Origin: Candidatus Rifleibacterium amylolyticum
Lineage (GTDB): Bacteria > Muiribacteriota > Ozemobacteria > Ozemobacterales > Ozemobacteraceae
NCBI GenBank assembly: GCA_009917695.1
Contig: JAACJG010000001.1
Location: forward strand, 269,219 to 333,218
Direction of reading: 5' to 3'
Length of the DNA: 64,000 nt
In this document: positions 4,739 to 52,882 of the stretch, one piece after another
Position numbering within the stretch: position 1 is the first letter of the stretch
How the letters are laid out: each line of letters opens with the position of its first letter
The notes under the pieces: generated by a model
Told to the model about the DNA's origin: nothing
Databases searched by the model: none
The model's input: the letters and a program-made list of their open reading frames with translations, nothing else
Made by a program: the position numbers and the translations under genes

Positions 4739-4830
4739 TGGAGTTTTCTCCTTAATTTTACGTTTGTCTAATATACTGCAAACTCCATAAATAGTTTAAA
4801 TTTTGCGCAAAAATTCTGGAGCCTTTTGAT

Positions 4831-6117
4831 TCAGGAATGATGATGGCCGAGTTTGTGGTTGAGGCGTTCGATGCGCTGCGCCAGCAGGCGGGCGAGAAAC
4901 AGCGAATAATGCGGCTTTTCTTTGATGCCGGCGACGAATTCTTTTTTTGAAATACGTATCAGAGCGCCATTGGTGACGGCTTTTACCGAGGCACTGCGAC
5001 GGTTGTTGAGCAGAAAAGACATTTCGCCGAGAAAGATGTCATCATGATTGAGCACGGTCATGGCCTCGCCGCCAACACTGACTTCGTAACGCCCTGAAGA
5101 GATGAAATAAAGAAAATCGCTGGGTTCACCTTCATTGAATACTGTCTCACCAGCAGCGAATTTAACGGTAGTAAGGTCTTTGAACAGCGCCGGAGTTATG
5201 TTGTTGACGCCTTCCTGGTGGTAGAAGCAAAATCGGACGGAGTTTCCTTTGTCGTTGTAAGTCAGATCACTGGTCATGTCGCGGGACAGCGCGACACCGC
5301 GCCCATGCAGGCTCAGCGCCACCGCGCCCTTGCTTGGGTCTTTGAGACTACGCCAGTCGAAGCCTTCGCCATCGTCGGTGATACTGAACTTGGTGTGATT
5401 GGGATATATGCTGTATTCGAGATAGACCTTGCGGTTGGCGATAACCGGGTCTTTGCAGCGCTGATCGATCAGTTCGGTCATGTCGCCGCCATTCTGCAGC
5501 CAGGTGGTCTTTTCACCATAAGAGATGCTGCAGTTGCCATGCTCGATCGCATTGATCAGCAGCTCGGTGAGCACGAAACTCAGCTTTTCCTTATTGATTA
5601 TGTCGATGCGGTTGAGGTTGTAGAGGTAGTTGCAGATCAGATTGGTAAAACAGTTTACCTCGATAAGGTCATTTTTGAGTTCAAAAGAAGTATTGATGAC
5701 GTTGCCGAGGTCACCGCCGATCACGCGCTGGAAAAGCATGTGGCGGTTGTGGCAGATTATGCTGAATACCTGTGGCAGCTGGCGTTCAAGGCGTGCCAGT
5801 TCAACCAGAGCGATGACGTTGGTGCTGCGCAGTTTCTCTGATTCGCGCAGCTCTCTGACAGACTCGCACAGTCCGATAATGCCGGAGCTGAGAAGCCAGG
5901 TGTCGCCTTTGATGACGTTCATCAACAGGTCGGTGTCGAGCTTGTCGTCGGCAAAGTTGATGACAACCAGTTCTGGCATTTCGACGCCGAGATAGTCCAT
6001 CGCCTGACTGGCCTTGTCGAGATAGACCGCTTCACAGCCTTCGAAGCACCCATTCAGCATTTTGCTGATACTGGCATAAAGTTCCTGATCTGATGTCACT
6101 ACCGGCACTCTGCTCAT
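4831..6117 (-). CDS. pseudo-receiver / RsbW-like ATPase / cNMP-binding fusion protein
   Basis: The 428-residue soluble protein has three parts. Residues 1-120 resemble a response-regulator receiver, but the phospho-acceptor aspartate is replaced (ELVVINFADD has Asn where Asp is expected). Residues about 140-300 form a GHKL ATPase of the RsbW/SpoIIAB anti-sigma type, with N-box LTELLINAIEHGN (N189), DDGEGF (248-253) and GRGVAL. Residues about 315-415 are a cyclic-nucleotide-binding domain whose phosphate cassette GEMSFLLNNRRSAS keeps the key Glu365 and Arg374. The gene is divergent from the first cyclase pair, 188 bases away, so it is a good candidate effector for their product. GAGAGG precedes the ATG. 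No sigma factor or STAS antagonist gene is in the window, so its partner is unknown. Confidence 0.85.
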   Translation of the reverse strand: MSRVPVVTSDQELYASISKMLNGCFEGCEAVYLDKASQAMDYLGVEMPELVVINFADDKLDTDLLMNVIKGDTWLLSSGIIGLCESVRELRESEKLRSTNVIALVELARLERQLPQVFSIICHNRHMLFQRVIGGDLGNVINTSFELKNDLIEVNCFTNLICNYLYNLNRIDIINKEKLSFVLTELLINAIEHGNCSISYGEKTTWLQNGGDMTELIDQRCKDPVIANRKVYLEYSIYPNHTKFSITDDGEGFDWRSLKDPSKGAVALSLHGRGVALSRDMTSDLTYNDKGNSVRFCFYHQEGVNNITPALFKDLTTVKFAAGETVFNEGEPSDFLYFISSGRYEVSVGGEAMTVLNHDDIFLGEMSFLLNNRRSASVKAVTNGALIRISKKEFVAGIKEKPHYSLFLARLLAQRIERLNHKLGHHHS

Positions 6118-6305
6118 ATTTGTTTCCTCTCAAGCCAAATTAACGCGCCTGCAGCTCATATTAAGGCTTTTGCCCTGCTTCGGTCAAGTCTATCGCTGAG
6201 TGCTGTTCTGGCGATTCTCGACAACCTGTGCACGGCGCAGTGGATTTGTTGAAGATATCAGGGTAGAATGCTTAATATTAGAAATTAAAGTCAGTAACCT
6301 GCTTA

Positions 6306-9197
6306 ATGCTTGAGAAGTCTCATAAAAGAACGGATCAGAATCACAGAATTATTGCGCCCGCAATGGTTGCATTGTTTTTTTTCATATTGCTGGTGCCGCT
6401 CCGGCTTCTGACCACAAGGATCGAAGAGCTTGCCAGACAGGATCAGGTATGGCGAAACGCCGAAATCAGTGCGCGTCTCAGCAATGAAATGGTGCGTTTC
6501 AAAAAAGATCTCCAGCCAGAAGATTTTGCTGCCAGCTATCTGCGGCGCCGCCTGGCTGATACCGGCCTGGAAAAAGGCATGGGAGAAGTCTGTTTTACTG
6601 AAAATAGAACTGAGCGTGAGCGTCTTTTTGATGGCGTGTTCGAGTGCATAGACTCTGCTTTGAGTTCTGGTGATAATGCGGTGCCCACTTTTTTTGTCGT
6701 TGTTGCCAGCAAAAATTTTGATAGTTTTCGTTATCGAATCAGGCCATCTCTGGTTGAACTGGCTGGCGGGGCTGAAGAAGCGGCCTTGTTTATCAGCTAC
6801 TTCACTCTTAACAACCACGAAGCAATGGTCGACAAAAATACTGCGCGCAGATACAAACAGATTACTACCGGCTGGGCCGGCACTGATTCTGTCTCTGAGG
6901 GCTTGAGAATAAAATTCGGTCAGATGCTGGGCAGTTATGTCGGTCGTGAGCCAAAAGAGCGTCAGATCAGCGTGTATTATAGCGATCTGCATGGCTTCGA
7001 CCGGCTCCTTTTCTGGTCGCAGCCAATATATGATACAGAGCATTTTTACGGCGCTCTGATGATTGGCCTGCTTGAGAGCGAACTGAAATCAACCACAATT
7101 TTGCAGCAGGCCGTCAACAATCCTGTAGACAACAATCTGCAAAGAATGGCCTGGACAGAAAGGCCTGAATTTTCTGGCGATGCCGATGGCAGCCTTTATG
7201 ACCAGACTGCGTTTGCCGGCAAACCTCTGTTTCTGGGTGTTAAGCTGGTTGGAAAAGGCGAAAGCTCTTTTTCGCAAATTCTGGCCTGGTTGCGTATTCT
7301 GGCTGGGGCGATTCTACTGCTGGGCTTTCTTTCATTCATGCATGCGCTGCTTTTTGGCATGCAGATAAGGTTTGAGCTGCGTGTAAAAATGGCTCTGGCC
7401 ATCGCAGTTGTCGTCTTCATTCCGGCTCTCCTGGTCGGCGTGCTGACCAGAGCGTCATTGCATGACTTCATGTCGTCACGCAGCGATATGGCGCAGGGAT
7501 ATCTGATGTCACGTCTCGACGAACTGGAACTTGCACAGGACGAACTCGATTCGCGACAGGTTCTGCAAGGGCTAAGATTCAAGTCACACATTGAAAAATA
7601 CTGGGGCGACGGTCTGCACAAGACACCTGAGGCAAAGATAATTTCTGATTACCTGAGTTTTTTTTCCGGACGTAACTTCTTTTACGATAGAAGCGGTAAT
7701 TCTCTGCATTTCCGCAGTGATAAAATCGCAGGGCACACCGACCGTCTTACTCTCAATAATGCGGTAAGACTTCTCAGCAGCCTGAGTGGACTGCAGCCAG
7801 GCGAGCGAACCAGAAAGCAGCTCGAGAATCTATCTTTCACTGATGCCTTTCTCGGTGATTTAAATGCCCTGACCAACATGAGTCTGGCGGCATCGCGAGA
7901 ATCTGAAATCGTTGGCAATCTGTCATCGCTGAATCCGCTGTCACGTGATATCGTGGCTTTATATGCCGATTCCGGTCAGCGCCCGATTCGTCCTCACACT
8001 ATCGGCTTTGTCAAGGCCAATCCTGAAGGGGCTATGGCGAGACTGATAAAAACCTCACCCGGTTTTCCGACTGGATTTTTTATGGAAACCAGCGGTGACT
8101 ATAACACCAGAATCGCTTTTGCCAATCGTGACAACGAGTTCGTTACTCAGGAATTCTTGTATGATCCTTCATTCAGGCGCGATATGGATCTCAAGTTGCT
8201 GTTTGACAGAGCTATGGAACTTAAGTCTTCGGGCAGTTCGGTTGCTGAAGATTCGCCGGAAAAAGTTGCCGGATGGCGCTACCGCAACGATTATCCTCAT
8301 ATTTTCGCCGGCACTACAACTTTCAGTCCCGACAGCTTCACCGCACTTTTTCTCGACCTTGTGCCTCTGGCAGTATTTGTTTACAGTCTTATCATCATGC
8401 TGGTTGTCAGCCGCTTTGTTGCCGGCCTGTTCATGACTCCGATCGAAACGGTCAGCCTGGGTGTGCGCGCGGTGGCGGCCGGTGAAGACCTGACGATGCG
8501 TGTTCAAATCTGCAATAATGACGAATTTGACCGCATGGGCAACGCGTTCAATGAGATGACGGCCGGTCTGCTTCAGAAAAGGCATATTTCGCGTTTCGTT
8601 TCTGATCGGCTGCTGGCTGAGATAGCATCGCCACAAAGCAAGGCGCAGGCCCGCGAAGAGGTGGCTACCGTGCTGGCTTCTGATCTGCGAAATTTCACGG
8701 GAATATCAGAGAAATTTCCGCCTGAAATGGTTGTTGATGTCCTTAATGACTATTTTACACTGATGGAACAGGCGATAAAGGCTGAAAATGGCAGTATAGA
8801 CAAGTTTATCGGCGATGCGATCATCGCGGTCTTTTATGCTCAGGAAGATGGCAATACGGCTTTGCGTGCAGCTCGCGCCGCCTGTGCCATGCGGCGCAGC
8901 CTGTCAGATTTTAATGAAACTCAACTTGCTTCTGGCCGATTCGCCATCGACAACGGAATCGGTCTGGCAACTGGCCGACTGATGTCTGCTGTGGCCGGGA
9001 GTCGAGGCCGACGTGAGTTTATTGTCACCGGCGCCCCGGTAGAGCGAGCGGAAGCATTGGAGCCGCTGAGCAAACAGGGCAGAAGCAGCAGAATAATTGT
9101 CGATGGCGAGACCTGCGCGGAATTGCAGGGGGCTTTTTCCTGCCGGCCGCTTGCCGGTCATCAGGATGTCTACGAGATCACCGGGCCAACAGCATGA
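6306..9197 (+). CDS. receptor-type class III cyclase, metal-site (C1-like) half, pair 1
   Basis: The 963-residue membrane protein has TM1 (about 18-36), a first extracytoplasmic domain, a TM hairpin (about 325-384), a second extracytoplasmic domain, TM4 (about 680-705), a HAMP domain with the linker motif RFVSDRLL, and a class III cyclase domain (about 785-950). The two metal-binding aspartates are present (D793 in SDLRNFT, D837 in DKFIGD), as is the substrate lysine K833. The adenine-selecting Asp is A910, the transition-state Asn is E913 and the Arg is A917 (GAPVERAEAL where GDxVNLAARL is expected). A homodimer should therefore be inactive. The start has no clear ribosome binding site; ATG 6363 is an alternative. 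The stop overlaps the next gene as ATGA. Confidence 0.92.
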   Translation: MLEKSHKRTDQNHRIIAPAMVALFFFILLVPLRLLTTRIEELARQDQVWRNAEISARLSNEMVRFKKDLQPEDFAASYLRRRLADTGLEKGMGEVCFTENRTERERLFDGVFECIDSALSSGDNAVPTFFVVVASKNFDSFRYRIRPSLVELAGGAEEAALFISYFTLNNHEAMVDKNTARRYKQITTGWAGTDSVSEGLRIKFGQMLGSYVGREPKERQISVYYSDLHGFDRLLFWSQPIYDTEHFYGALMIGLLESELKSTTILQQAVNNPVDNNLQRMAWTERPEFSGDADGSLYDQTAFAGKPLFLGVKLVGKGESSFSQILAWLRILAGAILLLGFLSFMHALLFGMQIRFELRVKMALAIAVVVFIPALLVGVLTRASLHDFMSSRSDMAQGYLMSRLDELELAQDELDSRQVLQGLRFKSHIEKYWGDGLHKTPEAKIISDYLSFFSGRNFFYDRSGNSLHFRSDKIAGHTDRLTLNNAVRLLSSLSGLQPGERTRKQLENLSFTDAFLGDLNALTNMSLAASRESEIVGNLSSLNPLSRDIVALYADSGQRPIRPHTIGFVKANPEGAMARLIKTSPGFPTGFFMETSGDYNTRIAFANRDNEFVTQEFLYDPSFRRDMDLKLLFDRAMELKSSGSSVAEDSPEKVAGWRYRNDYPHIFAGTTTFSPDSFTALFLDLVPLAVFVYSLIIMLVVSRFVAGLFMTPIETVSLGVRAVAAGEDLTMRVQICNNDEFDRMGNAFNEMTAGLLQKRHISRFVSDRLLAEIASPQSKAQAREEVATVLASDLRNFTGISEKFPPEMVVDVLNDYFTLMEQAIKAENGSIDKFIGDAIIAVFYAQEDGNTALRAARAACAMRRSLSDFNETQLASGRFAIDNGIGLATGRLMSAVAGSRGRREFIVTGAPVERAEALEPLSKQGRSSRIIVDGETCAELQGAFSCRPLAGHQDVYEITGPTA

Positions 9198-12151
9198 AAG
9201 TTATCAAGGCAAGATCACAGGTGAGCTTCTGGCTTTTGCTATCTGTATGGTTGCTGGTAGTCATTTTGCCAGCATTGCTTTTTCGCAGCGCACTTGACAG
9301 ATTTCTGAACTTCAGCCATGAACAGCAGAAACAGCGAGTTAAGCCCCTGCTTTTTGCTGAAATGCAGCAGTTTAAAGAAGATCTCGCCTTTGACGGAATG
9401 CTGCAGGAAGATTTTCAGACATTCGATCGTAAGCAGGGATTTTATGACGTAAACTCTGATGCAGTTACAGCTTCGGCAGCCTGTGATGCCGCCCGTATCC
9501 GCAACGATCTCGAGCGTCATCTGGGTTTTCCTGTGTTTATGGTGATGGCACATGGGGCAGATACTGTTAAAACTGATTACTCTGTGGCAGCAGCTTCTTT
9601 TGCCGAGGTCAAAATGCCGTCGACCACCATGTTGCGGCGTTTCTTCGCTCTGGTTAACGATCAGATGGATCATTCGCAGGTGTTCCCAGAAGAATACCGC
9701 CCGGCCTTTCCTCCTGGCACCGCTTATGAAGACGAAAAGGTGCGCAAGGTATATCTCGAGGGTTTCCTTCAGAACCTGCTTGGAACCAGCATGCCATTCA
9801 ATGTTCAGCCCCGGCGTCTTTATGGCGCAGTTGCCAGTAAAATCGGCGACACCGGGCGTATTTATATTTATTATGGCGCCGGCAGCGTGGCCCGCGGGCA
9901 GGGACGTTGTATTAGCTCAGGCTATCTGGCGGTGATCAGAGCAGCTGACATTGCCGAGAGTCACATAGTCAGAAAAGCCTCGAGCCGGTCGTTTTACCCG
10001 GATCTGTTAAGGCGGATGACTTTTTTGCAGCCGGCAATCGCCGACCCTGACAATTTTTCCTGGCGCGGTTACAGTCAGGTTCGTGAGCAGAACGGCAACT
10101 ATTCTCTGACAACAGTTGTACAGCCCCGTCAGCTGGTTAGAATCGTGCAGAAGGGCGGAATAGTTGCCCGCGATTTTTCAGCTTTTGCCGGGAAGACCAT
10201 GGGTATTGAGGTTTTTTGCCGGCTCAGCCAGCTACAGCACCCGCTATGGCATTATCAGCAGCCGATTTATCTGCTTCTTCGTCTGCTCGTTCTTGCCGGT
10301 GTATTGATTTTCATGCGCCTGTATCTTTTCGGCTTCGATATGCAGATGTCGTTGTCGATCAAGATTTCTCTGGCTGTAGTGGCGGCCGGTTTTTTGCCAT
10401 TACTGAGCCTTCTGCTCAGTATGGCCGCTTATGACGATTCTGCCAGGGCGGCCAGACATGATCGTATTCAGCGCTTTATCAAGATAAGAAACCGGGAAAT
10501 TCAGGATTATCTGTCAGCCTGCCTTAGAATAAAAGAAGAACAGGCGCAGGAGCTCGCAGAAAAAATGGGTGCCATCAATGAACGTCAGCCTCTTGAACTG
10601 CATGATTATCTGCAGGCATGGATGAAAAGACGCCCGATTGATGCTATTCTCTATAAGCCTTTGTTCGGTGAAACCATGACTGTTATCTCACCAGAAGCGG
10701 CGTTGCCAGCCAAAATTGCCAAAAATGCCGATGCGGCAAAGGTGTTTTGCGGATCTATAGCTGAAATGCTGCTTAGTTCACCTTTGCTGAATCCAGACCG
10801 GCAAAGCATGTCGACGCTGCTGACAGAAGGCAGCGGCAACATCGGCAGCACTCATTCAATGATGATAAGTAATGGCCGGATCATCAATCTTGCCAAATTG
10901 CAGGGGCGTTCCCGCATAGCTGTGGTGTTGGCGTGTCGTCCCGGGGAGATCCGTACGCCGGTTGCAGTCATCATGATTATCTACTCTCTTGACCGGCTGA
11001 TCGAAGAAATGCTGCAGGGTATTGTCGACAGGTTTCCAGCAGAAGAAGACCTTGCCGGCTGGCATATTGACCGGGCGTTTGGCGTAGAAGCGGATGGTCA
11101 GATTCATAAATCAATGTTTGCATCTTCATCTCAACTGGATGACGACTTTATCATGAATCAGATGCGGGCCTGTTTCAGTTCGAAGCGCGATATTCAATGG
11201 TTTGGCCGTAAGGGTGGCGAAGAAATGTTCTCTTTTGTCTGTTTTGACCAGAGTTTGCCATTGCTGAATCTTACGGTGATCAGAGTGCCTGCTGCTGCCG
11301 GCGTTATGGCAGGCTTCGAGTTCTGGCGCTGGTTATACCCATTTCTGCTGGTATTGTTCATATTGCTGTTTTCTCGTTATTTTTTCATCGGCCCGGCCCT
11401 GCAGTTGGCGAGAGGGTTGTCGGTCATTGCCGGTGGCGATCTGCAACATCGTCTGCAACTGCATAGCGGCGATGAATTCGAAACTCTGGCCCAGGAGTTC
11501 AACCAGATGGCACAAGGCCTGATGGAAAAGGAACAACTTGAGGCCTATGTCTCAAGCGATGTTCTGGCAGAAGCGCGCGTCTCTGAGGTCGCTCATCTGC
11601 ATCCTGGCGGTGAGCGGATTGTCGCCAGTGTCGCTTTTGTTTCTCTTCTGCCACTGGCTAAAGAAGCTGCTGGTGGTGGCGTGCAGTTGCCGCATATCGA
11701 CAGCTTTCTTGATCTGGCTCAGATTTTATGCGGTGAAACCCATGGTGTCATCGACAAGGTAATCGGTCATAGCCTGATGCTGGTGTTTCGTGCCTCAGGG
11801 AATAATGCCGATCATCAGTTGAATGCCTGTCACATGGTGATGCAGCTTGTTGCAGCAGTTCAGGCCTCGCAACTGGGCAGCAGCTGTCGGGTGGCGGCCG
11901 GGCTGGCGTGTGGCCAGCTGGTTTCCGGCAAAATCGGCTCGCGTAATGGCCGTCTCGATTTTACCGTTATTGGTGACACGGTCAATCTGGCGGCTCGACT
12001 TAAGTCGTATGCCGAGAACCTGGCGGACTCGCCAATACTGATTTCAGAAGAACTACGGGCCGCCGTGGCAGACAGAATTTCAGCCAGACTCGAGAGCGAA
12101 GTGCAGCTCAAGGGTAAGTCTTTACAGACCAGGGTATATCGAATTGCATGA
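9194..12151 (+). CDS. receptor-type class III cyclase, substrate-site (C2-like) half, pair 1
   Basis: The 985-residue paralogue has the same layout as its upstream partner: TM1 (about 12-33), TM hairpin (about 357-412), TM4 (about 709-735), HAMP, then a cyclase domain (about 805-980). Both metal-binding aspartates are gone: S817 in FVSLLPL where FSDIRGF is usual, and H859 in DKVIGH where DKFIGD is usual. The substrate residues are intact: K855, D928, N931 and R935 in VIGDTVNLAARL. This is the exact complement of the upstream protein, so one full active site could form at a heterodimer interface. Lys plus Asp predicts ATP as the substrate. The ATGA overlap suggests coupled translation at equal amounts. 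The alternative is that both proteins are non-catalytic receptors. Confidence 0.92.
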   Translation: MKVIKARSQVSFWLLLSVWLLVVILPALLFRSALDRFLNFSHEQQKQRVKPLLFAEMQQFKEDLAFDGMLQEDFQTFDRKQGFYDVNSDAVTASAACDAARIRNDLERHLGFPVFMVMAHGADTVKTDYSVAAASFAEVKMPSTTMLRRFFALVNDQMDHSQVFPEEYRPAFPPGTAYEDEKVRKVYLEGFLQNLLGTSMPFNVQPRRLYGAVASKIGDTGRIYIYYGAGSVARGQGRCISSGYLAVIRAADIAESHIVRKASSRSFYPDLLRRMTFLQPAIADPDNFSWRGYSQVREQNGNYSLTTVVQPRQLVRIVQKGGIVARDFSAFAGKTMGIEVFCRLSQLQHPLWHYQQPIYLLLRLLVLAGVLIFMRLYLFGFDMQMSLSIKISLAVVAAGFLPLLSLLLSMAAYDDSARAARHDRIQRFIKIRNREIQDYLSACLRIKEEQAQELAEKMGAINERQPLELHDYLQAWMKRRPIDAILYKPLFGETMTVISPEAALPAKIAKNADAAKVFCGSIAEMLLSSPLLNPDRQSMSTLLTEGSGNIGSTHSMMISNGRIINLAKLQGRSRIAVVLACRPGEIRTPVAVIMIIYSLDRLIEEMLQGIVDRFPAEEDLAGWHIDRAFGVEADGQIHKSMFASSSQLDDDFIMNQMRACFSSKRDIQWFGRKGGEEMFSFVCFDQSLPLLNLTVIRVPAAAGVMAGFEFWRWLYPFLLVLFILLFSRYFFIGPALQLARGLSVIAGGDLQHRLQLHSGDEFETLAQEFNQMAQGLMEKEQLEAYVSSDVLAEARVSEVAHLHPGGERIVASVAFVSLLPLAKEAAGGGVQLPHIDSFLDLAQILCGETHGVIDKVIGHSLMLVFRASGNNADHQLNACHMVMQLVAAVQASQLGSSCRVAAGLACGQLVSGKIGSRNGRLDFTVIGDTVNLAARLKSYAENLADSPILISEELRAAVADRISARLESEVQLKGKSLQTRVYRIA

Positions 12152-12215
12152 CAGCATTCTTGTTTTTGCAGCAGAGATTGGTTAAAATCACATATCCGAC
12201 AGAAGGCAGGTAAAA

Positions 12216-12602
12216 ATGAAAAAACGTATTGAGAGCGCGATCAGACTTATTCTGGAAAATGCCGGCGAGGGCTGGTTCATAATACTTGAAGAGCCGACCG
12301 ATGAGAAGTTTGTTCAATTCGCCTATGACGAAGACACGGGGCTGATCTTCGATCTGCCGTTTCAGGCACTCGACGAAGACGAGCTGGCGCGGGCCCGCCA
12401 GGTGCTCGGCGAGGCAGGGGTCGGTGATGAAGTTGCCGGAATTTTTGATTCGCCAGATGGCGAGCAGATTGGGGAACAGCGCTCTTTCAATACGATGATC
12501 GGCCGTGATGTTGCCCGGGCAGTAGAACTTGTGCACAAAGTGTTTACTTATGTCTACGGTTTCGACGATAGAACCAGGTTTGATGTCACGATAAGCCGAT
12601 AA
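12216..12602 (+). CDS. hypothetical protein, 128 residues
   Basis: The protein is small, acidic and soluble, with no signal peptide or membrane segment. AGGCAGG lies 7 bases before the ATG. The start (an amphipathic helix, then GEGWFIILEEP and KFVQFAYDEDTGLIFDLP) alternates strands and helices like TY-Chap or secretion-chaperone folds, but this is an impression and not an assignment. It follows the first cyclase pair after 64 bases on the same strand, with no terminator between them, so it may be the last gene of that transcript. It could also be expressed with the zinc-ribbon membrane protein that begins 50 bases later. Function is unknown. Confidence 0.7.
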   Translation: MKKRIESAIRLILENAGEGWFIILEEPTDEKFVQFAYDEDTGLIFDLPFQALDEDELARARQVLGEAGVGDEVAGIFDSPDGEQIGEQRSFNTMIGRDVARAVELVHKVFTYVYGFDDRTRFDVTISR

Positions 12603-12651
12603 GCAATAAAGGCATCGAGTTATTACAGGGGCAACAGAAGGTGGCAGAGCG

Positions 12652-13815
12652 GTGAAGAAAGAAAAAGCGGCGATCACGACAGTGTCAGACAAATGCCGTT
12701 ATTGCAGGAGTGAGATTCCGGCTGGCGCAGTTAAGTGCTGTCATTGCCAGGAATGGCTCGATGGTCGGGCCGAATCAGCAATTGAAGCTGATGAAATCAT
12801 GGTTGCGCCAAGAGACCCCGCGGTCAGACCGGCACAACTGCCGCCGGCATGTTTTCAAAGCCGGCTGGCGGCAACGATTCCACAGGTAAGCTACTGGACT
12901 TTCTATTTTGCCCTGAGTATGCTGTTTTATATCGTGATCGCTCTGCACTGGACCTTTGGCCCTGAAGACAGAATCTTCCTGATCTCGTTCATGTTTAACG
13001 CCATGCAGATGTTCTTTTCGGCGGCCGGCATGGTCTGGTTCGAAAAACTGCTCGACCGCTTCCGAGCCGAAATACCGGTAATAACTGGCTGGAGCGCGGA
13101 ACGCAGCGAAGAATACTATCTCAAGAACCGCGAGAGGGTTTTTGCAAACGGAGTGCCCCTGGCTGTTGGCCTGATAATATGTACAATAGCAGTGATTGGC
13201 GACAGTCAGGTGATTGGCATGCCTTTTGCCACTGAAGCGGGGCGGGTCGCTTATCTCATGTACGAGTTCAGCTTTCTTTTCTGGAGCGCATCTGCCATAG
13301 TTTATTTTATCAAGTTCGCCATGTTTATCAGAGAATTTGGCGACCTTGAACTGCGCATACTTATCATCCAGGAAGAAGAATCCGGCATCCGCATGCTCGG
13401 CAAGTTCATTTTGCAGACAACGCTGTTTGCGGTAATTCCCTATATCTGCAGCATAACCGCCCGCCATATCGGTGGCTGGAACTTTTCGTCGCTGCTGTCG
13501 GTATGGTTCGCGCTTTTCGGCATTTCGATACTTTTTTATCTGTTCTGGCCGATCTACAACATTCATCGCGCCATGATCAGAGAGAAAGACCGCAAGCTCA
13601 ATCTCGTTTCATACGAGCTTAACAGCCTGCTTTCGCGGCCACGTCTCGAAAGAGAGAATATCCACAAGGTACGAAACCTGCTCGAGATTCGTAACTATCT
13701 GCACGAAATCAACACCTGGCCATTCGATATGAACAAGGTGGTCGGGCTTCTTTCAGCGGTAATCATACCCATGGCCTCGATTCTGGTTGACCGCGCGCTC
13801 AAGGGCGGGCAGTAA
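12652..13815 (+). CDS. zinc-ribbon multispanning membrane protein, unknown function
   Basis: The 387-residue product starts with GTG, preceded at suitable distance by AAGGTGG. Residues 15-36 form a small zinc ribbon (CRYCRSEIPAGAVKCCHC, two CxxC pairs), followed by a linker and about seven hydrophobic segments between residues 75 and 385. Several Tyr/Trp-rich helices and a Lys/Arg-rich loop before the last helix suggest an inner-membrane protein with a cytoplasmic zinc ribbon. I do not recognise the family. A 59-residue single-TM protein follows 27 bases later with its own strong ribosome binding site and is probably co-transcribed. Confidence 0.75.
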   Translation: MKKEKAAITTVSDKCRYCRSEIPAGAVKCCHCQEWLDGRAESAIEADEIMVAPRDPAVRPAQLPPACFQSRLAATIPQVSYWTFYFALSMLFYIVIALHWTFGPEDRIFLISFMFNAMQMFFSAAGMVWFEKLLDRFRAEIPVITGWSAERSEEYYLKNRERVFANGVPLAVGLIICTIAVIGDSQVIGMPFATEAGRVAYLMYEFSFLFWSASAIVYFIKFAMFIREFGDLELRILIIQEEESGIRMLGKFILQTTLFAVIPYICSITARHIGGWNFSSLLSVWFALFGISILFYLFWPIYNIHRAMIREKDRKLNLVSYELNSLLSRPRLERENIHKVRNLLEIRNYLHEINTWPFDMNKVVGLLSAVIIPMASILVDRALKGGQ

Positions 13816-41230: not shown

Positions 41231-44098
41231 TCAACTTTGTATCGCTTTCAGCAGCCAGGCTTCGACGGTCTGAGTTTTGCCTTTAACCGAGCTGATTGGA
41301 AGTTTATCGCAGGTAATGCCGGCAGGTATTGCGTCTATCAGTATCCCACTGATTATGACGCCGCCATCAGGCCTTTTGCCGGCAAGAGAGGCGAGGCGGG
41401 CCGAGAGGTTGACCGGATCACCGACGACTGTGCGTGACAGGCGGGCTTCGGCCGCTCCCATAATGCCGGCAACGACGACTCCGGTGTTGACGCCGGCGGC
41501 GACGTGATGGCCGGTTCTGGCAAACACCAGATCACTTATTTTCAGCGCCGTTCTGATGGCATTCGTCTGATAATCGGGATTTTCGTTATTCTGCTCAAAC
41601 ACAATCATGATTTTGTCTTCGATCATTTTGTCGATTTCGCCGCCATAAATGCGGGTTGCTTCATCCGATGCCTGCAATAAGCTTTGTAGCAGTTCAAATA
41701 TCTGGTGTTCGTCGTGGTTGCTCTGAAAACTCGCAAAATCACAGATTCCGGCAAATATGATGGCAGCATTGCGCAGTTCAGACTTTTTGGCAAGTTCGTC
41801 GATTTCCTGCCCGGCAACAATTTCGCGGCGCACAGATTCGCTGACAAATCCCTTCAGCAGATTTCCTTCACGCAGACCGGCAGCAATGCGGTTAAAAGCT
41901 GCTCCGATTTCAGCAAATTCATCAGGATGATTCTGACTGATCTCAATCTGGTAGTTGCCAGCGGTTATCTGATAGGTTGCATCGGTCAGCTCGCGCAACG
42001 GTCTGGTAAAATAACGGGCTCCAGCCAATGCCAGCGCAAAGCTTATAAGCGCCAGACCGGCGAGAAAAAACAGAGCTTTCTTTTCGAGATCTTTGCGGTA
42101 GGCGGCGAAGCTGGCAATAGTTTCGCTGCCGGCCACCGTATAAAATGAATAATTGCAGGGAAATGCATGTCTGATGGTGATAGTCTCGTCTAACTTTTCT
42201 ACGCCAGCAGTCTGGGCCCGATTGAAGTGTGAATTTTTTGCCAGACTCAACAGGTGCGGGCGCCTGGCCTCGGTTTCCTCAAGAGCATACTTAAGCGTAT
42301 CCGTAGATCGCTCATTTCCCCATATTGCCAGGCGGGGTGAGCGGGAATTCAGATCGAGAAACCGCAGCGGAAAGTCGTGTACCGCATTTTTTTCGTCCAT
42401 GTGCCAGGTTATGTAGGCGTGGAAGCGGTTACCCCAGCGTATCGGCATACCGAAAAGCTTGTTTTTCTTATACGTCGTTCTGATGTCGAGATACATGGGA
42501 GAATAGCGGCGAAAATTGAAAAAGATGTCTGGCCCGAACAATTGCAAAAAGAAATCACGCGAATATTCGCCCTTGAGATCGTCCTGAATATGATGACCGC
42601 CATGGCGAGTGATTACTTTGCCATGGTTGTTGTGATAATCGAGAATCTCTACGAAGCGGTCGTTGAAAAAGCCGGTGAAATCGCTTTCTTTGCTTTCGGC
42701 CCGATACTGGTCGTCGTCGCGCATCGAGACTGCAACGAATTCGCCGTCGTCGCGGCACATCCATAGAGATGTGAAGTAACGGCTCAAAAGCTGCCTGTCG
42801 AGAGTCTGCAGCAGCGTGATGCAGTAGTTGAAATCATCAGAGCCAGTGTAAGGTTCATGCGTGTAACTGCTGATTCGTTCAATAGAATCAAAGGTGCGCA
42901 CCAGATTCAGGCGATTGAGAAAGTTGTCGTTCGTCTGCTGGTCAAGGTCGTTAAGTTCACCAGAAAGCTTTTCAGAAGTAGCGCTTTGGATGTTGTTGTA
43001 ACTTGTCTGTAAATATTCGTTGGCCAGATAGATCATTGAAAACAGTGGTTGTATGAACAACATGAGAAAAATCAGCGGTATCAGGAATCTGATTTTGAGG
43101 TCAAACCCTCGGTTCAGCATTATTTTCTGGCCGATCATTATAAAAAGAAGTGTCGATATGGCAGCAAGAATGATAACAAGAAACTTTCCGGTTCTGCGGT
43201 TTGCACTGTCAGCGACAACAGGTCCTGCGACTGCAAACAGGCGGGTCTCACTGCGCTGGTCAATTGCTGCCAGATAGATTCGGCAGCCGTCTATATCGAC
43301 TGTTTCAGACGTGGGGCCGGCTTTGGCGATAAACTTTGTCAGTCTGGCACGCAGTGAATCTTTTTTGTCGAACCACGGCGAGAATACGGGCTGTCCTGTG
43401 CCTGCCGGCAAACAGCCGGTTCCGTAATCTTCTTTTGCGTTGCGAATCTTATTTTTCAGTGATTTCAGCCAGGAAATCGGGTGCAGGTCTGCGAGTGCCA
43501 GTAAGTAAATCTCCGGGTTCAGACTTTTGCCGAAGATGACGCGCATGCCATTTTTGCTGCGAAAGGGAATGATTGTGCTGCTGATGAGAGAACCGGCTTC
43601 TTCTTCGAGAGTCGCTGCAAAGTAGCCTGTCCAGAGAGGATTTTTATCGACTATCATATTCTTGCTGAAATTTTGCAGTATCGCTTCGATTCCGAGTCGG
43701 GTTCCGTATCTGAAAGTTCTGAAGTGCCTGCGGTCTTCGCTCAAACGAAACATGAATGCAATTTCGCATGGATAATCGACTTTATCGAGCAACTCGCTGG
43801 CAATTTCCTGGAAAAAAATACTGGCGTCGGCAGATCTTGCCCGCAAAGAGTAATATTCTTCTGCCTGCTTTCCATCGAGGATCACCTTTCGGGCAAGGCG
43901 TGACACGTTCATCTGAAACTGGCTGTCTGAAGACATTGGCATTGCCAGTTCTTCCAGGCGCGAGGCGATGACGCGAGCCCGTTCTTCTTCGAAGGCGTCT
44001 GTCTGCATTCTGGCCGCTTCTTGCATGGCAAAATAGACGCTGACAGGCGGAAAAAACAGAATGACAGAGATCAGAAGCAGCATTAAAAGTTTTTTCAT
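41231..44098 (-). CDS. receptor-type class III cyclase, substrate-site (C2-like) half, pair 3
   Basis: The 955-residue product has TM1 (about 3-25), a TM hairpin (about 303-356), TM4 (about 676-700), HAMP, the linker GFVSESVRRE, and a cyclase domain (about 775-945). The first metal aspartate is replaced by G784 (FAGICDF), while the second is kept as D828 (DKMIEDK, with the usual Gly before it changed to Glu). Substrate residues are all present: K824, D894, N897 and R901 in VVGDPVNLSARL. It is the natural partner of the upstream gene, whose stop overlaps its start as ATGA. The closest relative here is the C2-like gene at 46979-49891, which shares the LPISxVKGKTxTVEA ending. Confidence 0.92.
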   Translation of the reverse strand: MKKLLMLLLISVILFFPPVSVYFAMQEAARMQTDAFEEERARVIASRLEELAMPMSSDSQFQMNVSRLARKVILDGKQAEEYYSLRARSADASIFFQEIASELLDKVDYPCEIAFMFRLSEDRRHFRTFRYGTRLGIEAILQNFSKNMIVDKNPLWTGYFAATLEEEAGSLISSTIIPFRSKNGMRVIFGKSLNPEIYLLALADLHPISWLKSLKNKIRNAKEDYGTGCLPAGTGQPVFSPWFDKKDSLRARLTKFIAKAGPTSETVDIDGCRIYLAAIDQRSETRLFAVAGPVVADSANRRTGKFLVIILAAISTLLFIMIGQKIMLNRGFDLKIRFLIPLIFLMLFIQPLFSMIYLANEYLQTSYNNIQSATSEKLSGELNDLDQQTNDNFLNRLNLVRTFDSIERISSYTHEPYTGSDDFNYCITLLQTLDRQLLSRYFTSLWMCRDDGEFVAVSMRDDDQYRAESKESDFTGFFNDRFVEILDYHNNHGKVITRHGGHHIQDDLKGEYSRDFFLQLFGPDIFFNFRRYSPMYLDIRTTYKKNKLFGMPIRWGNRFHAYITWHMDEKNAVHDFPLRFLDLNSRSPRLAIWGNERSTDTLKYALEETEARRPHLLSLAKNSHFNRAQTAGVEKLDETITIRHAFPCNYSFYTVAGSETIASFAAYRKDLEKKALFFLAGLALISFALALAGARYFTRPLRELTDATYQITAGNYQIEISQNHPDEFAEIGAAFNRIAAGLREGNLLKGFVSESVRREIVAGQEIDELAKKSELRNAAIIFAGICDFASFQSNHDEHQIFELLQSLLQASDEATRIYGGEIDKMIEDKIMIVFEQNNENPDYQTNAIRTALKISDLVFARTGHHVAAGVNTGVVVAGIMGAAEARLSRTVVGDPVNLSARLASLAGKRPDGGVIISGILIDAIPAGITCDKLPISSVKGKTQTVEAWLLKAIQS

Positions 44099-46977
44099 AT
44101 CGATGCCTCAAGGTCGAGGAGCTCATAGCTGCCTTCGTTATGCACACAGAAATGTTGTTTCGCTGCAGGAATCATTTGTATCATTGCCTCAGAAACGATC
44201 ACGGCGGTGTGTCTGCTGCTTTTGCTCTGCGCTTCGAGCTGTTCGGCAATATTTCTTGCCTTGCCGATGATCGTGAATTCAGAGCGGTTGCCAGATGAGA
44301 GAGCTCCGGTGATAACTGTTCCATGGGCAAGCCCTATGCCAATATCATAGCTGAACAGATTTCGCAGTCGTCTTTCGGCAATAATCTGGTGATGGCGGCG
44401 CATCATCGCCGCGGCAGCTCTGATGGCGTTCAGACATGCATCTGCACCTTCTCCTGGAAAAAGTGCGACAACGGCATCACCGATAAATTGATCGACGCGA
44501 CCGCCGTTGCTGTTGATCGCTTCGACCATGCCCCGCAGGTGCTGGTTGAGCATCTGACTGATCAGCACCGGGGGGTTGGCTTCTGAATGGGTTGTGAAGC
44601 TGCGAACGTCGGAGAATAGAATCACCCCGGCAATTTTTTGTGCACCGGTTTGAGCGGCAACTGAAGCGACCTGATTGTCGAAGGTTGTCGAAACGAACTT
44701 GCCCAGCAGCTGCCGCTCTTTTAGGCCAATGACCATGTTGTTGGTTGCTGTTGCCAGTTCTCCCAGCTCATTGTCATATTCATATTCGAAGCGCTGACGA
44801 TAATCTCCGGTTGCGATGGCGGCAAAGATGCCTGAGAGCAGGCCGGTCGGTTCTATGAATAGACGCGCTGCCCCGGCCGCAAGCACGTAGATAAGCAGCG
44901 ACATCAGACAGACGCCGCATAAAAGCAGAAGCTGACGCCAGTCAGTTTCTCTGGCCAGATCAGAAACATCGATAAAGGCTCCACCATACCAGGCGCCGAG
45001 TTTGAGCAGTGGTTCGTAAACAAATATCTGGCCTGACTGTCGCAGAATCAGATCTATCTCTGAGCTGGCGGCTGATTCTGCAAAACTTAGCAGCTTCTGG
45101 CCGTTTTCTGACCCGATGAATTGCCGTGCAGTGGCTGGCAATATTCTTTGGGTTGCCGATAGATTGCGATTGAAGCAGGCAAAGGTGACTTCGCCGTTTC
45201 GGTTGGCGTTCATCAGGTCGTGGTCAAGCATGTATTCGAAAGTTCTCATGGTGCTTACGCTGATGACGAGGTATACAGGAAGTCCTCGCTCATCGATAAT
45301 CATGCTGTTGTAGAAGAAATTTATGGAGTTGTTGCCGGTCTTCATGTAAGTCAGGCGTTCGACTGAATCAAGAAACAATTCTCTGGCAACTGATTTGCCC
45401 ATTTTATCGAAGAGACCGAGCAGGGTTTTTTGCATGGCAGACATTCTGATTGCAGGCATTTGCGGGTAGTATTTCGAGAACAGGCGTGAAATCGATTCGC
45501 AGGCGACAGCGAAATAGTCGAGGTGAAAGCGTGCCATCGCCGTGTGGGCCGGCGATGCTGAAATCTGGCGGGGTTCGTGACCCGGCTTGAAAATCAGCAT
45601 GTATTGAAGATTGTAGTTGCGTTTTTTGAGCTCAGCTTCAAGAGAAGCGAAACCCACCATCTGACTGGAAGGCATGGCGAACTGCTGTTGCAGATCGGGG
45701 TTTTTCAAAAGATTGTTCAGTATCATCGCACACCAGTTACTGGTGCTCTCTGACTTCTGGTCGAAGTTGCGCAGGGTTGTGCGGGCGTAGTTGATGCGGC
45801 TTCTTACTCTGGCCTCGGCCGACTCATCGATAAGATGTAGAACCATGATGACCAGGAAGGCGACCGGCAACATACCGGTCATGAAAAAAAGAAGCCTGAA
45901 TGTCGTAGAAAGCGAAAGAATGCCGCGCCGGCGGTTTTGCAGAAAATAGAGTATCCAGGCGAACAGCCCGATTGTCGCGAAAAGTTGCAGATATGATGTT
46001 TGTGCCGAAGATGCCTTGCCGGCATCGCTGACGATGGCAAATGAATAAGATGTTTCGGTGTCGATGAAATCATGAAAGAGCCAGCGGCCATCGACGTGGT
46101 TGATCTCTCTTGGTTTGAGGTCGCTGCCGCCCCAGTGTTTTCTGAGAACCTGCAACGCTTTGTGAGACTCGGCAATTTTGTGCAGATGCTCTGGCATTAT
46201 AGGTTGAACTGCCGGTTCGAGCTGTGGTGAATTTACAAAAACTGCGAGGCCGATACCGGGCTCAGTTTTACTTATCCGATCAGCCAGTTTTTGCAGCGCG
46301 CCCCTGGTGTCTTCGATGAAGGCGCCGGGTAACAAACTGATGAAGCCGATAAACTGATTGTTGGCGATTTCAAGTACTCGCCAGCACAGGTAGTAGTGAT
46401 TGCCCTCGTAAAGCACCGGTGTCAGTCGACCCTGGCGTTCGGTTGCCAGGTGCTGTGGTGAAGAGTTTTCGCCAAACATGCCGCTGATGAAGCGTTCGTG
46501 CAGGCGATTGCTCGAAGTCTCGCCGGTGTCGCCGGAAAGATGGCAGAGTGCTTCGAAAACTCTTATAAAGGCTCGCTTCTTCTGGTTCATCAGTCCGTTG
46601 CCTACGATGAGCTCGAAGCGGTCACGGGATTTTATGAATGTCCAGGTCTGGCATTGCTTTGCTATTTCTGGATCGAGATTTTCGGCAAAAGACTTTATTA
46701 AAAGTGAGGCCAGTTCTCGATCAGAATTGTTCGCGGCTTTTTCGAGATAATCGGCAATTGCCTTGAAAGCCTGTTCTGCCTGACGTTCACGTGTGAATTC
46801 AGATCTGACTCTGGCTGCCAGAATATTTGCGCGATTCAGCCACTCATTTTCTGCGCGCTCTTGTCGGGACTGGTTAAATCGTTGCAGCGAACCGGAAAAA
46901 GTCAAATACAAAAGCAGACCGAGAATGATCGGGAAGCAGAACACGAAGGCTGAGCGCAGATCAAATTTTTGTCGCAT
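44095..46977 (-). CDS. receptor-type class III cyclase, metal-site (C1-like) half, pair 3
   Basis: The 960-residue product has TM1 (about 10-28), a TM hairpin (about 329-382), TM4 (about 682-706), HAMP, the linker KFVSTTFDNQ, and a cyclase domain (about 780-950). The metal aspartates D790 (FSDVRSFT) and D834 (DQFIGD) are intact. The substrate Lys is Q830, the adenine-selecting Asp is K906, and the Arg is Q913 (GKARNIAEQL); only N909 of the substrate set remains. The gene starts one base after the stop of the previous gene and overlaps the next by ATGA. It fits as the metal-binding partner of the gene at 41231-44098. Confidence 0.92.
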   Translation of the reverse strand: MRQKFDLRSAFVFCFPIILGLLLYLTFSGSLQRFNQSRQERAENEWLNRANILAARVRSEFTRERQAEQAFKAIADYLEKAANNSDRELASLLIKSFAENLDPEIAKQCQTWTFIKSRDRFELIVGNGLMNQKKRAFIRVFEALCHLSGDTGETSSNRLHERFISGMFGENSSPQHLATERQGRLTPVLYEGNHYYLCWRVLEIANNQFIGFISLLPGAFIEDTRGALQKLADRISKTEPGIGLAVFVNSPQLEPAVQPIMPEHLHKIAESHKALQVLRKHWGGSDLKPREINHVDGRWLFHDFIDTETSYSFAIVSDAGKASSAQTSYLQLFATIGLFAWILYFLQNRRRGILSLSTTFRLLFFMTGMLPVAFLVIMVLHLIDESAEARVRSRINYARTTLRNFDQKSESTSNWCAMILNNLLKNPDLQQQFAMPSSQMVGFASLEAELKKRNYNLQYMLIFKPGHEPRQISASPAHTAMARFHLDYFAVACESISRLFSKYYPQMPAIRMSAMQKTLLGLFDKMGKSVARELFLDSVERLTYMKTGNNSINFFYNSMIIDERGLPVYLVISVSTMRTFEYMLDHDLMNANRNGEVTFACFNRNLSATQRILPATARQFIGSENGQKLLSFAESAASSEIDLILRQSGQIFVYEPLLKLGAWYGGAFIDVSDLARETDWRQLLLLCGVCLMSLLIYVLAAGAARLFIEPTGLLSGIFAAIATGDYRQRFEYEYDNELGELATATNNMVIGLKERQLLGKFVSTTFDNQVASVAAQTGAQKIAGVILFSDVRSFTTHSEANPPVLISQMLNQHLRGMVEAINSNGGRVDQFIGDAVVALFPGEGADACLNAIRAAAAMMRRHHQIIAERRLRNLFSYDIGIGLAHGTVITGALSSGNRSEFTIIGKARNIAEQLEAQSKSSRHTAVIVSEAMIQMIPAAKQHFCVHNEGSYELLDLEASI

Positions 46978-46978
46978 G

Positions 46979-49891
46979 TCAGACTGTTTTCCTGGATACG
47001 CTGAAAGCTTCTACTGTGTGGGTTTTACCTTTAACCCGGCTGATTGGAAGTTTTTCACACAGGTAATCATCTGACATTTTTTCGACCGTACTGCCTGATG
47101 CGACTATGCCGCCATCTGGAAGATTGGCAGCAACAGCGGCCAGGCGCGCTGCCAGATTCACCGTGTCACCGACAACAGTTTTTGAAAGCCTGACATTGCC
47201 GGCTCCCATGACCCCGGAAACAACTTCGCCTGAAGTAATACCCGATGCAGTTTGCAAAGAGTAGTCTTTCTGTATGGCATTCTTTATCGCGATTGCCGTG
47301 GCAATAGCGGCATCAACCTGTTTATGTTCGTTCTGCTGCCGGTTCTCGAAAACGATCATGACTTTGTCTTCGATCATCTTGTCAATTTCGCCGCCATATT
47401 GTTCTACTGCTGCTACTGCGGCAGAAAGGTGAGCCTGAAGTATTTCGAAGATTTTCTGCGGGTTGTGCCGCTGCTGAATTGAGTGAAAGTCCCTGATCGA
47501 TGAGAACAATACCGTTGCTCTGGTATTGCGGGCAATATCCGTGCTGGTAAGCTCTTCGCGCTCAGTAAGTTCTTTGACGCTGTCAGAGACGAAGCTGCTT
47601 AGCAGTTCGCCCTGCTGCAGGCCAGTGGCCATTTTGTTGAATGCGTCTGCCGCTATGGCAAATTCATCAGGGTGGCTTGGTGTCAGGCGTATTGCATAGT
47701 TGGCCTCTGCAATCTGTCTGGTCGCCAGGGTCAGCTGGCGAATGGGAATAGTGAAATACAAAGAAGTGAGCAGTGCCAGGACGATTCCGCCAACTGCGAT
47801 CCAGCCGAGATAACGCACGGCCTCTGCTATCAACTCTCCGGTTATACTTTCGATGTCGCGCGTGATTCTACTTCCACATATTATGAAGTCTGAATAGCGG
47901 GCCGGCCGTACTTCGAATACAGGCGTTCCTGAAGCCTGATAATTCTGCATGAAAAGACGGCTGCCGGTAACCAGTGCCTGGTTACCGAGTTCGACAAGTT
48001 CCGGAAAATCTCGACTGAGTAAGTTCAGCGCTTTGGGCCGCGCGCCAATATACTGATCATTGCCAAACAGTGTAAACAGAGGGCTATGCTGGTCGGTTCT
48101 CAGGTCCTTTTCTGGAAACTGATCGCGTATGCCTGCAGAATCGAAAACCCAGGTTATTATGTATTTTGCTTTATCATTTCTGGTCATAGGAATGGTGAGC
48201 AGGGCATTGGTGTCCATGAATGATTCCTGCCAGACCAGTGAACCGAAGTCTTCTCTTATCTTGTAGTAACTTTTGGCTCCAAACATATTCAAAAAAAAGC
48301 TGTCGAGCAGTTCAGCCTTCAACTCATCAAATTCTATGTTCTGGCCTGGTTTGCCTTGATTCTGGCGTCTTTTTTCAGGATCATCTTTTTCAAGATATGA
48401 TTTATAGCGCTTAATGAAATATTCTTCAGCGACAGCGTTGCCACCTGTTGTAAATCTGTATCTTTTCTGGTCACGATCGTAAATTATTGAAAAAAATGGT
48501 TGAGACTCGTCATAGACCCAGATGTTGGTGAAGGCAGGTCGGCCATAAATTTCATGCATTTTTCTGGCGGCATTTAGAATAAGCTCGTTGATCGAGGTTG
48601 ATTCAGGCAGCCCGACAAAGGCGGCAAGTTTTTCAGTAGAATTGAGGCTCTTTGCATAATTGACCGCGAATCTGAAATTGGCGAGGGTTTTGACGTCGAG
48701 TTCTACAAGATCTTCGGCCAGTTCTTCGATAGCGCGGTTCTTTTCCTTCTTGAAGTTTGCGGCGACATACTCATTCGCAAGGTATGCAGAACTGAGAAAT
48801 GGCAGCATGGTCACTATAACGAAAATGGCCAAAATGAACATCATGACGGAAATATCTCGACCACGACCGAAAATTATGTTTTCAACGATAATTTTGAAAA
48901 AGCAGCAGCCAGTTAAGGCAAAAACTATTATCAGCAGAAGCATTCTTGGCTGTCTGGCATTTAAGGGGGCCTTCGCTGCGATTATGACCCGATATGGCTT
49001 TTTCGGATCGTAATCACTGGCCAGCAGAAGATAGTTTTGCTGATGATGAATGAAGCCACGGTTCCCATTTACTTTCATCAGATTACTGACCGATGTGAGC
49101 AACTGTTGTCTGTCTTTGAAAAATGCTGATGCCTTTATTATTCTGTGGTTGGGGTTCACGAAAGCAAGTCCCATGTCTTCATGCTGCCATGCCTCTATCT
49201 TTTGCCTGGCCCGGGCATTGGTATCGATAAGGCTGAGGTCGGCAAGAAAATTCATGAGAAAGGCTGCCCGCAACCGGAGCATAAGCAAAAGGCGATAAGA
49301 ACCGTGCTCTCTAATTATTGTACGCTCGATTTTATCACCATCACCGTCTTCAGCAAGGACTTCGATATCGAAATACATTTTGAGGCGATGCCTTGCGAGA
49401 TCGTTTATGGCATTTTCAGCTGTCGCTCTTTTTTCAGGCGTATTTCTGTTCATCTGATAATAGCGCAATTGGACGATGAAATCTTCGAGTATGCTTTCTG
49501 AAACAGTTTTGCCGTTTCTCATGGTCAAGCATAAATCTCTGCCATTCTGGCGATAGATAAATGAACTCTCGCCACCGAACCACATGCTCGTTACTTCCTG
49601 CATCAGATCCTTTACGAATGCGAGAAGTTCATTGTTTACCTCATTTTCATCACGGGCCAGAAAGGCGTCAGATCTTGTTCGACGAAGTGCCATGAAAAGC
49701 TTACGGTAAATTTCAGTGACCGGGTTTATCAGAATATCCTGGCGCTGCAGTTCATTTTGCATGCGGTGAATTAACTGTTTCTCGGACTCATGCAACATGG
49801 TTAACGCTGAATTCTTCATCGAAGAATAAATAACCAGTGCAGGGGCTGACATGAAGAAGATTGCAAGTATAATCAGAACAATCTTTTTCAT
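46979..49891 (-). CDS. receptor-type class III cyclase, substrate-site (C2-like) half, pair 2
   Basis: The 970-residue product has TM1 (about 3-22), a TM hairpin (about 314-370), TM4 (about 687-710), HAMP, the linker SFVSDSVKEL, and a cyclase domain (about 788-960). The first metal aspartate is S798 (FSSIRDF); animal C2 domains also carry Ser here. D842 is kept in DKMIEDK. K838, D909, N912 and R916 (VVGDTVNLAARL) are intact, predicting ATP binding. Its start shares one base with the upstream stop (TAATG), so it is coupled to the C1-like gene. A single base separates its stop from the next pair. Confidence 0.92.
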   Translation of the reverse strand: MKKIVLIILAIFFMSAPALVIYSSMKNSALTMLHESEKQLIHRMQNELQRQDILINPVTEIYRKLFMALRRTRSDAFLARDENEVNNELLAFVKDLMQEVTSMWFGGESSFIYRQNGRDLCLTMRNGKTVSESILEDFIVQLRYYQMNRNTPEKRATAENAINDLARHRLKMYFDIEVLAEDGDGDKIERTIIREHGSYRLLLMLRLRAAFLMNFLADLSLIDTNARARQKIEAWQHEDMGLAFVNPNHRIIKASAFFKDRQQLLTSVSNLMKVNGNRGFIHHQQNYLLLASDYDPKKPYRVIIAAKAPLNARQPRMLLLIIVFALTGCCFFKIIVENIIFGRGRDISVMMFILAIFVIVTMLPFLSSAYLANEYVAANFKKEKNRAIEELAEDLVELDVKTLANFRFAVNYAKSLNSTEKLAAFVGLPESTSINELILNAARKMHEIYGRPAFTNIWVYDESQPFFSIIYDRDQKRYRFTTGGNAVAEEYFIKRYKSYLEKDDPEKRRQNQGKPGQNIEFDELKAELLDSFFLNMFGAKSYYKIREDFGSLVWQESFMDTNALLTIPMTRNDKAKYIITWVFDSAGIRDQFPEKDLRTDQHSPLFTLFGNDQYIGARPKALNLLSRDFPELVELGNQALVTGSRLFMQNYQASGTPVFEVRPARYSDFIICGSRITRDIESITGELIAEAVRYLGWIAVGGIVLALLTSLYFTIPIRQLTLATRQIAEANYAIRLTPSHPDEFAIAADAFNKMATGLQQGELLSSFVSDSVKELTEREELTSTDIARNTRATVLFSSIRDFHSIQQRHNPQKIFEILQAHLSAAVAAVEQYGGEIDKMIEDKVMIVFENRQQNEHKQVDAAIATAIAIKNAIQKDYSLQTASGITSGEVVSGVMGAGNVRLSKTVVGDTVNLAARLAAVAANLPDGGIVASGSTVEKMSDDYLCEKLPISRVKGKTHTVEAFSVSRKTV

Positions 49892-52836: not shown

Positions 52837-52857
52837 GCACTCTTTTTTCTGAGGCAT

Positions 52858-52882
52858 ATTATAACAGAACACCTGTTACAGG
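52858..52882 (-). promoter_or_regulatory. promoter of the cyclase operon with a palindrome over the spacer
   Basis: On the minus strand a consensus TATAAT occupies 52863-52858, about 20 bases before ATG 52836, and no good -35 box is present. CCTGTTACAGG (52872-52882), an 11-base palindrome, covers the -35 side of the spacer. A weak -35 with a palindrome there is typical of a site for an activator or repressor. Confidence 0.5.

Follow-up and report, generated by a model that had tools for sequence, protein, structure and literature searches.

Two overlapping genes in the stretch of Candidatus Rifleibacterium amylolyticum DNA that we analyzed (64,000 nucleotides, referred to here as the window) encode two receptor-like proteins, A and B, and we consider it highly probable that both are required as subunits of a single membrane receptor cyclase with one composite active site, the activity and the geometry of the dimer being inferred. 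Pfam found a HAMP and a Guanylate_cyc (PF00211) domain in each protein above the gathering score, and hydropathy analysis gave candidate transmembrane segments at amino acids 14-32, 331-349, 365-383, and 683-701 of A and at 12-30, 358-376, 394-412, and about 708-737 of B. Both chains thus have the same layout of four predicted membrane segments, two predicted extracytoplasmic regions, a HAMP domain, and a C-terminal cyclase domain, and a Pfam search found no family covering the extracytoplasmic regions. The six catalytic positions are incomplete on each chain, A being without the base Asp, Asn, and Arg and B without both metal aspartates, and the full catalytic set is present once across the A:B pair (Table 1). 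The residues named in an earlier note on this DNA (D793, D837, A910, E913, and A917 in A; S817, K855, H859, D928, N931, and R935 in B) were all correct when checked against the sequence, and the four-base gene overlap that it described is real, with ATGA common to both genes. That note missed K833 of A, the Lys of the other subunit's set, which is kept in most A-type halves.

TABLE 1 Positions of the receptor cyclase genes, their catalytic features, and further annotated genes in the window
Feature	Positions	Strand	Basis or remark
HATPase_c_2 and cyclic-nucleotide-binding domain gene	4831..6117	-	Pfam; divergent from A
ORF A, A-type receptor cyclase half (predicted metal donor)	6306..9197	+	963 aa; Pfam and residues
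HAMP domain of A, aa 704-755	8415..8570	+	Pfam PF00672
Class III cyclase domain of A, aa 780-951	8643..9158	+	Pfam PF00211; limits from HMM reading
D793 codon of A, first metal Asp kept; followed by phosphate-loop FT, aa 797-798	8682..8684	+	
K833 to D837 of A, Lys and second metal Asp, both retained	8802..8816	+	
A910, E913, A917 of A; base Asp, Asn, and Arg all gone	9033..9056	+	
ATGA stop/start overlap of ORFs A and B	9194..9197	+	
ORF B, B-type receptor cyclase half (predicted donor of base and transition-state residues)	9194..12151	+	985 aa; Pfam and residues
HAMP domain of B, aa 733-776	11390..11521	+	Pfam PF00672
Class III cyclase domain of B, aa 805-971	11606..12106	+	Pfam and HMM reading
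S817 of B, first metal Asp gone	11642..11644	+	
K855 of B retained; H859 replaces second metal Asp	11756..11770	+	
D928, N931, R935 of B; base Asp and transition-state Asn/Arg retained	11975..11998	+	
C-terminal KGK of B, aa 973-975; motif in most B-type, absent from most A-type halves	12110..12118	+	
Third window pair, B-type half, GDKDNR, 4-base overlap	41231..44098	-	HMM residue reading
Third window pair, A-type half, DDQKNQ	44095..46977	-	HMM residue reading
Second window pair, B-type half, SDKDNR, 1-base overlap	46979..49891	-	HMM residue reading
Second window pair, A-type half, DDQKAR	49891..52872	-	HMM residue reading

The active site of class III cyclases lies between two subunits, one giving the metal pair and the other giving Lys, Asp, Asn, and Arg. 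In the mechanism that we propose, an A:B dimer would form one such site, to which A would supply the two metal aspartates and the phosphate loop, while B would supply the base-reading Lys/Asp, the transition-state Asn/Arg, and probably a C-terminal Lys. The mirror-image second site, without both sets, would be dead, as in animal adenylyl cyclases, and A:A and B:B dimers would be expected to be inactive. Cyclic nucleotide would then be made only with both receptors present and aligned, so that the pair would act as a two-input sensor; the logic of the two inputs (AND, ratio, or a single sensor plus a helper) and the ligands are inferred. Such a pair would be a clear example of how bacteria could integrate two receptors, with one catalytic site existing only when two different sensors meet. 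In class III enzymes the combination of Lys and Asp points to ATP and hence to cAMP, and the most likely product, inferred from the Lys/Asp kept in B, is cAMP. This Asp is replaced by Asn or Ser in a few B halves (KNNR and KSNR); they occur in the host genome (C3:400549-403479 and C9:212467-215325), in orthologues, and in another receptor family of the phylum (f3), and since they are conserved across genomes, base recognition has possibly changed in them.

The earlier note had treated the window pair as a single odd case; instead, it is one instance of an expanded family with 18 couples in the genome. We read the six positions (Me1, Me2, K, D, N, and R) with one HMM in 129 domains from three genomes of the same genus, defining as A type those domains that kept both metal aspartates and had lost Asn/Arg and as B type those that had lost the metal pair and kept Lys, Asp/Asn, Asn, and Arg. 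The host genome of the window (5.39 Mb in 35 contigs) contains 61 PF00211 cyclase domains, and the other two genomes contain 64 and 63, compared with up to 30 per strain given in a review (PMC9552081). In the host genome, 36 of the 61 domains were 18 A and 18 B halves, which form exactly 18 complementary couples: 13 split gene pairs and 5 fused single proteins of about 2,000 amino acids, always in the order A then B (one example lies at C23:12750-18764). All 13 split pairs overlap, by 1 to 38 bases, with the order A-B in 10 and B-A in 3, and several pairs are arranged in runs, such as ABAB or BABABA. Two further split pairs lie within the window itself, on the minus strand (41231-52872). Receptors of about 1,000 amino acids come from adjoining genes, one reading DD-x-xxx and the other x-x-K-D-N-R, and this division was identical in every couple of the three genomes, except for one fused A half of genome G002 that keeps N and R. 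For 18 random couplings of 18 A and 18 B halves, the probability that all are complementary is 2.9e-5; given shared ancestry, this value is illustrative only, and the conservation pattern described below is the stronger evidence. Of the remaining 25 domains in the host genome, 23 have the metal pair, Asn, and Arg, and 2 are degenerate; in the three genomes, lone cyclases mostly read DDKDNR. Lone cyclases with an altered base Asp (DDKENR and DDKTNR) were considered as A type and rejected, since they keep N and R and are therefore intact. The host genome has 19 matches to cyclic-nucleotide-binding domains versus its 61 cyclase domains, i.e., many inputs and few obvious effectors.

Because all 18 A and 18 B halves of the genome are divided alike, a complete site would result from any A:B cross-pair, and the runs of adjacent pairs also leave room for halves of different pairs to mix into a combinatorial receptor network with composite sites. 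This would be a variant of the A:B reading, and we regard it as possible but rather unlikely. Private couples are favored by the overlap of all split pairs, by the fusions, and by a strong mirror correlation between partners: the distance matrices of the A and B domains (18 + 18 domains from one genome) correlated with r = 0.752, while the best of 10,000 permutations reached 0.449. However, correlated A and B trees can arise from co-duplication without contact, and these statistics are affected by shared ancestry.

The conservation of the two halves bears on whether they are enzymes at all. Among the sampled relatives, the metal aspartates were invariant in 124/124 A halves, in which the D, N, and R positions were more variable than the median column; conversely, K, N, and R were invariant in 120/120 B halves and D was nearly so (rank 15), while Me1 and Me2 drift. 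Part of this conservation is demanded by the class definitions themselves (DD for A; K, N, and R for B). What is informative, as judged from the sequences, is that almost no receptor half falls outside both classes, that halves adjoin their complements, and that features unused in the classification divide in the same way. Thus, the phosphate-loop FT after Me1 was present in 124/124 A halves and 8/120 B halves, and a C-terminal KG motif, at what we take to be the site of the phosphate-binding Lys of animal C2, was present in 101/120 B halves and 9/124 A halves. It could be argued that both halves are dead pseudo-cyclases kept for dimerization or signaling, as each half alone is without essential residues and pseudoenzymes are common. 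We consider this very unlikely, since dead sites drift everywhere, whereas here more than 120 sequences show no change in the metal pair of A or in K/N/R of B, and the phosphate loop and KG motif follow the same division. The retention of complementary halves indicates that these are not decaying enzymes, and readings as dead scaffolds or random decay were rejected because only the unused positions drift.

The division extends beyond the three genomes. Direct orthologues of the window pair read DDKEEE+SHKDNR in genome G005 and DDREDG+SHKDNR in G002, and at 61 loci from related genomes, complete fused proteins were all A then B and adjoining halves alternated. The exceptions were genes cut at contig ends and a few A halves with N and R (DDKENR in G002 and DDRENR at locus L167). 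These A halves, together with some B halves in which one metal Asp remains (GD) or the pair is conservatively changed (DE), show that the A/B residue division is sometimes incomplete. Named records among the fused-protein relatives are nearly all Candidatus Riflebacteria or Ozemobacter, and the few named otherwise, e.g., Erysipelotrichia and Methylomirabilis, are probably misnamed assemblies. Family f3 of the same phylum also contains complementary pairs (DDRDEE+GNKNNR, DDRIAY+GKKSNR, and DDRGEE+GHKDNR), all split and none fused in the stretches that were read. The co-variation of both residue patterns in homologues, put forward in the earlier note as a check on its proposal, was clearly positive in orthologues, in paralogues, and in this other family. 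Together with the natural A-B fusions, which occur in many genomes and show, as far as sequence can, that the two halves belong together, the co-variation supports the split-site heterodimer that the note had inferred; cAMP synthesis, the inactivity of either half alone, direct contact of the residues, and the equal protein amounts that the note expected from the overlap remain inferences. At one locus in G005 (L119; G005:C117:29906-32755), a B-type half reading GDKDNR has a reading frame only over its last 264 amino acids, and the spacing suggests an interrupted B gene beside the intact A half DDQVSQ.

A further family (f5) contains a tandem pair reading DDKENR+DGKDNR at two loci, L216 (G035:C127) and L219 (G033:C154). 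The two members are sisters nested in an intact clade with full support, and the pair is apparently a separate, early-stage split. Its DDKENR partner could still homodimerize, which lends some support to the possibility that in the window pair, too, one half, most likely A, is a low-activity homodimer with B as a regulatory partner; A keeps both metal aspartates and K833, and N and R survive in a few A halves. Nevertheless, in almost every couple both sites of an A:A dimer would lack an intact Asn/Arg pair, and this explanation gives no account of why B keeps K/N/R without exception, so we think it most improbable. An origin by chance or artefact, through sequencing errors, misalignment, or random losses in a pair of neighboring paralogues, comes to mind because all of the genomes are assemblies of uncultured organisms, but it deserves next to no credence and was rejected, since the pattern is conserved and recurs in direct orthologues and across many genomes that were assembled separately, and the alignment of the motif blocks is clean at all six positions.

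A split pattern common in other phyla was also considered and was rejected: in a sample of 192 genomes from three other phyla, nearly all domains at the 70 best-matching loci read DDKDNR. The sample contained one split-type tandem open reading frame, ADCY10-like (L257; G087:C372, minus strand, positions 1-1317), which matches human ADCY10 with an E value of 9e-29 and with both domains in register. Its first domain reads DDKSAH and its second NHRENR, and from its sequence we take it to be a putative ADCY10-like split-site cyclase outside the Riflebacteria, which would mean that soluble-type split-site cyclases occur in bacteria too. This case limits the absolute novelty of the split-site cyclases of the Riflebacteria.

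In trees built without the six catalytic columns, the A, B, and intact labels needed 4 to 6 changes, compared with 42 to 54 when the labels were shuffled. The small number of changes indicates that the split is old and that couples multiplied as units, so the 18 couples are not independent events; many branches of the trees are weakly supported. Also present in the host genome are lone receptors of the four-helix layout that retain the full six residues (C3:124119-127025 and C4:476260-479316), and these plausibly picture the homodimeric ancestor. The fused proteins cluster on both tree halves near the unfused pair L152, a placement in the sequence trees that suggests that fusion came after the split. 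The different membrane part and the local tree suggest that the split in Riflebacteria is independent of the animal C1/C2 split, although no animal C1/C2 sequences were in the tree. We lean, by a small measure, toward the view that the Riflebacteria independently reached the animal solution (duplicate, split the site between two receptors, and fuse) and run about 18 private two-input channels per genome. The phylum contains homodimeric receptors that are intact, split pairs in tandem, A-B fusions, and a nascent split that is apparently separate (DGKDNR+DDKENR), so the stages of this route can be studied in living lineages.

In a search of solved proteins, the matches were cyclases, and A aligned to the first (C1) and B to the second (C2) cyclase domain of human soluble adenylyl cyclase. 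An AlphaFold model was made of an uninterrupted part of one natural fusion, comprising the first cyclase domain, the second receptor part, and the second cyclase domain, with 49 sequences as input, and it reached a pLDDT of 83 and a pTM of 0.60. Its best match in the PDB was human AC5, over 1,239 aligned columns with an rmsd of 34 Å and therefore without a rigid superposition; this places two cyclase folds in the right order and does not show the interface. The full-length model of A was poor (pLDDT of 58) and was excluded.

The animal membrane adenylyl cyclases ADCY1-9 are among the closest parallels in design, with one composite site in which C1 holds the metal Asp pair and C2 holds Lys, Asp, Asn, and Arg, a dead mirror site, and the same order as the fused Riflebacteria proteins (membrane part, C1, membrane part, C2). 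The Riflebacteria proteins differ in being bacterial, in being mostly encoded by two genes, and in occurring in about 18 copies per genome, and their halves each combine four predicted helices with large extracytoplasmic regions and a HAMP domain, whereas ADCY1-9 have six helices and a short helical linker. The window pair, being two genes, does not unite the two cyclase domains and two membrane parts in a single chain, as five other couples of the host genome do, and two six-helix membrane bundles are not found, given the four hydrophobic segments of each half and the HAMP domain before the cyclase domain. By analogy, the best-supported reading is that the Riflebacteria pair would work like the animal membrane cyclases, its activity being inferred; membership of that family has not been shown. 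ADCY10 is also alike in having two tandem cyclase domains and one composite site but is soluble and without a receptor part. Soluble guanylyl cyclase alpha/beta pairs separate chains in a heterodimer that has one active site and one pseudo site; it differs in being eukaryotic, soluble, and NO sensing and in making cGMP. The rhodopsin-guanylyl cyclases of chytrids, RGC1/2 with NeoR, are heterodimers of separate membrane receptors, as proposed here, and are active only as heterodimers (PMC7655827), but they are fungal and light driven, make cGMP, and are not encoded by overlapping tandem genes that also occur as natural fusions.

Homodimeric bacterial class III cyclases, such as mycobacterial Rv1625c, CyaB, and Cya2, belong to the same catalytic domain family (PF00211) but carry all residues on each chain and have two equal sites (PMC9552081). 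The lone cyclase of the host genome at C3:124119-127025 resembles them in carrying the full six residues and has the same four-helix layout as the halves of the pair. Schultz 2022 states in a review that bacterial class III cyclases homodimerize and that fused dimeric species are unknown in bacteria, and asks what the advantage of a fused dimer is (PMC9552081). A literature search that left out most subscription journals found no description of cyclases in Riflebacteria and, in agreement with the earlier note, no characterized bacterial split-site receptor pair. Bacteria thus appear to have built two-input cyclases of a kind that the literature ties to eukaryotes, and with dozens of cases, both split and fused, and natural intermediates, the phylum makes the question of the fused-dimer advantage testable.

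The HATPase_c_2/cyclic-nucleotide-binding gene starts 188 bases upstream of A, and G005 has retained it with 83% identity; its position and domain make it a candidate cAMP effector, a role that is inferred. Two genes on the same strand downstream of B (12216-12602 and 12652-13815) are of unknown family, with no Pfam match, and their order is conserved in G005 with identities of 86% and 82%. When window positions 3755-13815 were compared with the corresponding locus in G005 (L110), three flanking genes were 82 to 86% identical to their orthologues and a FlgJ-like flanking gene was 63% identical over the aligned part. Receptors A and B were only 43% and 48% identical to theirs, which indicates that the pair is evolving much faster than its neighbors.
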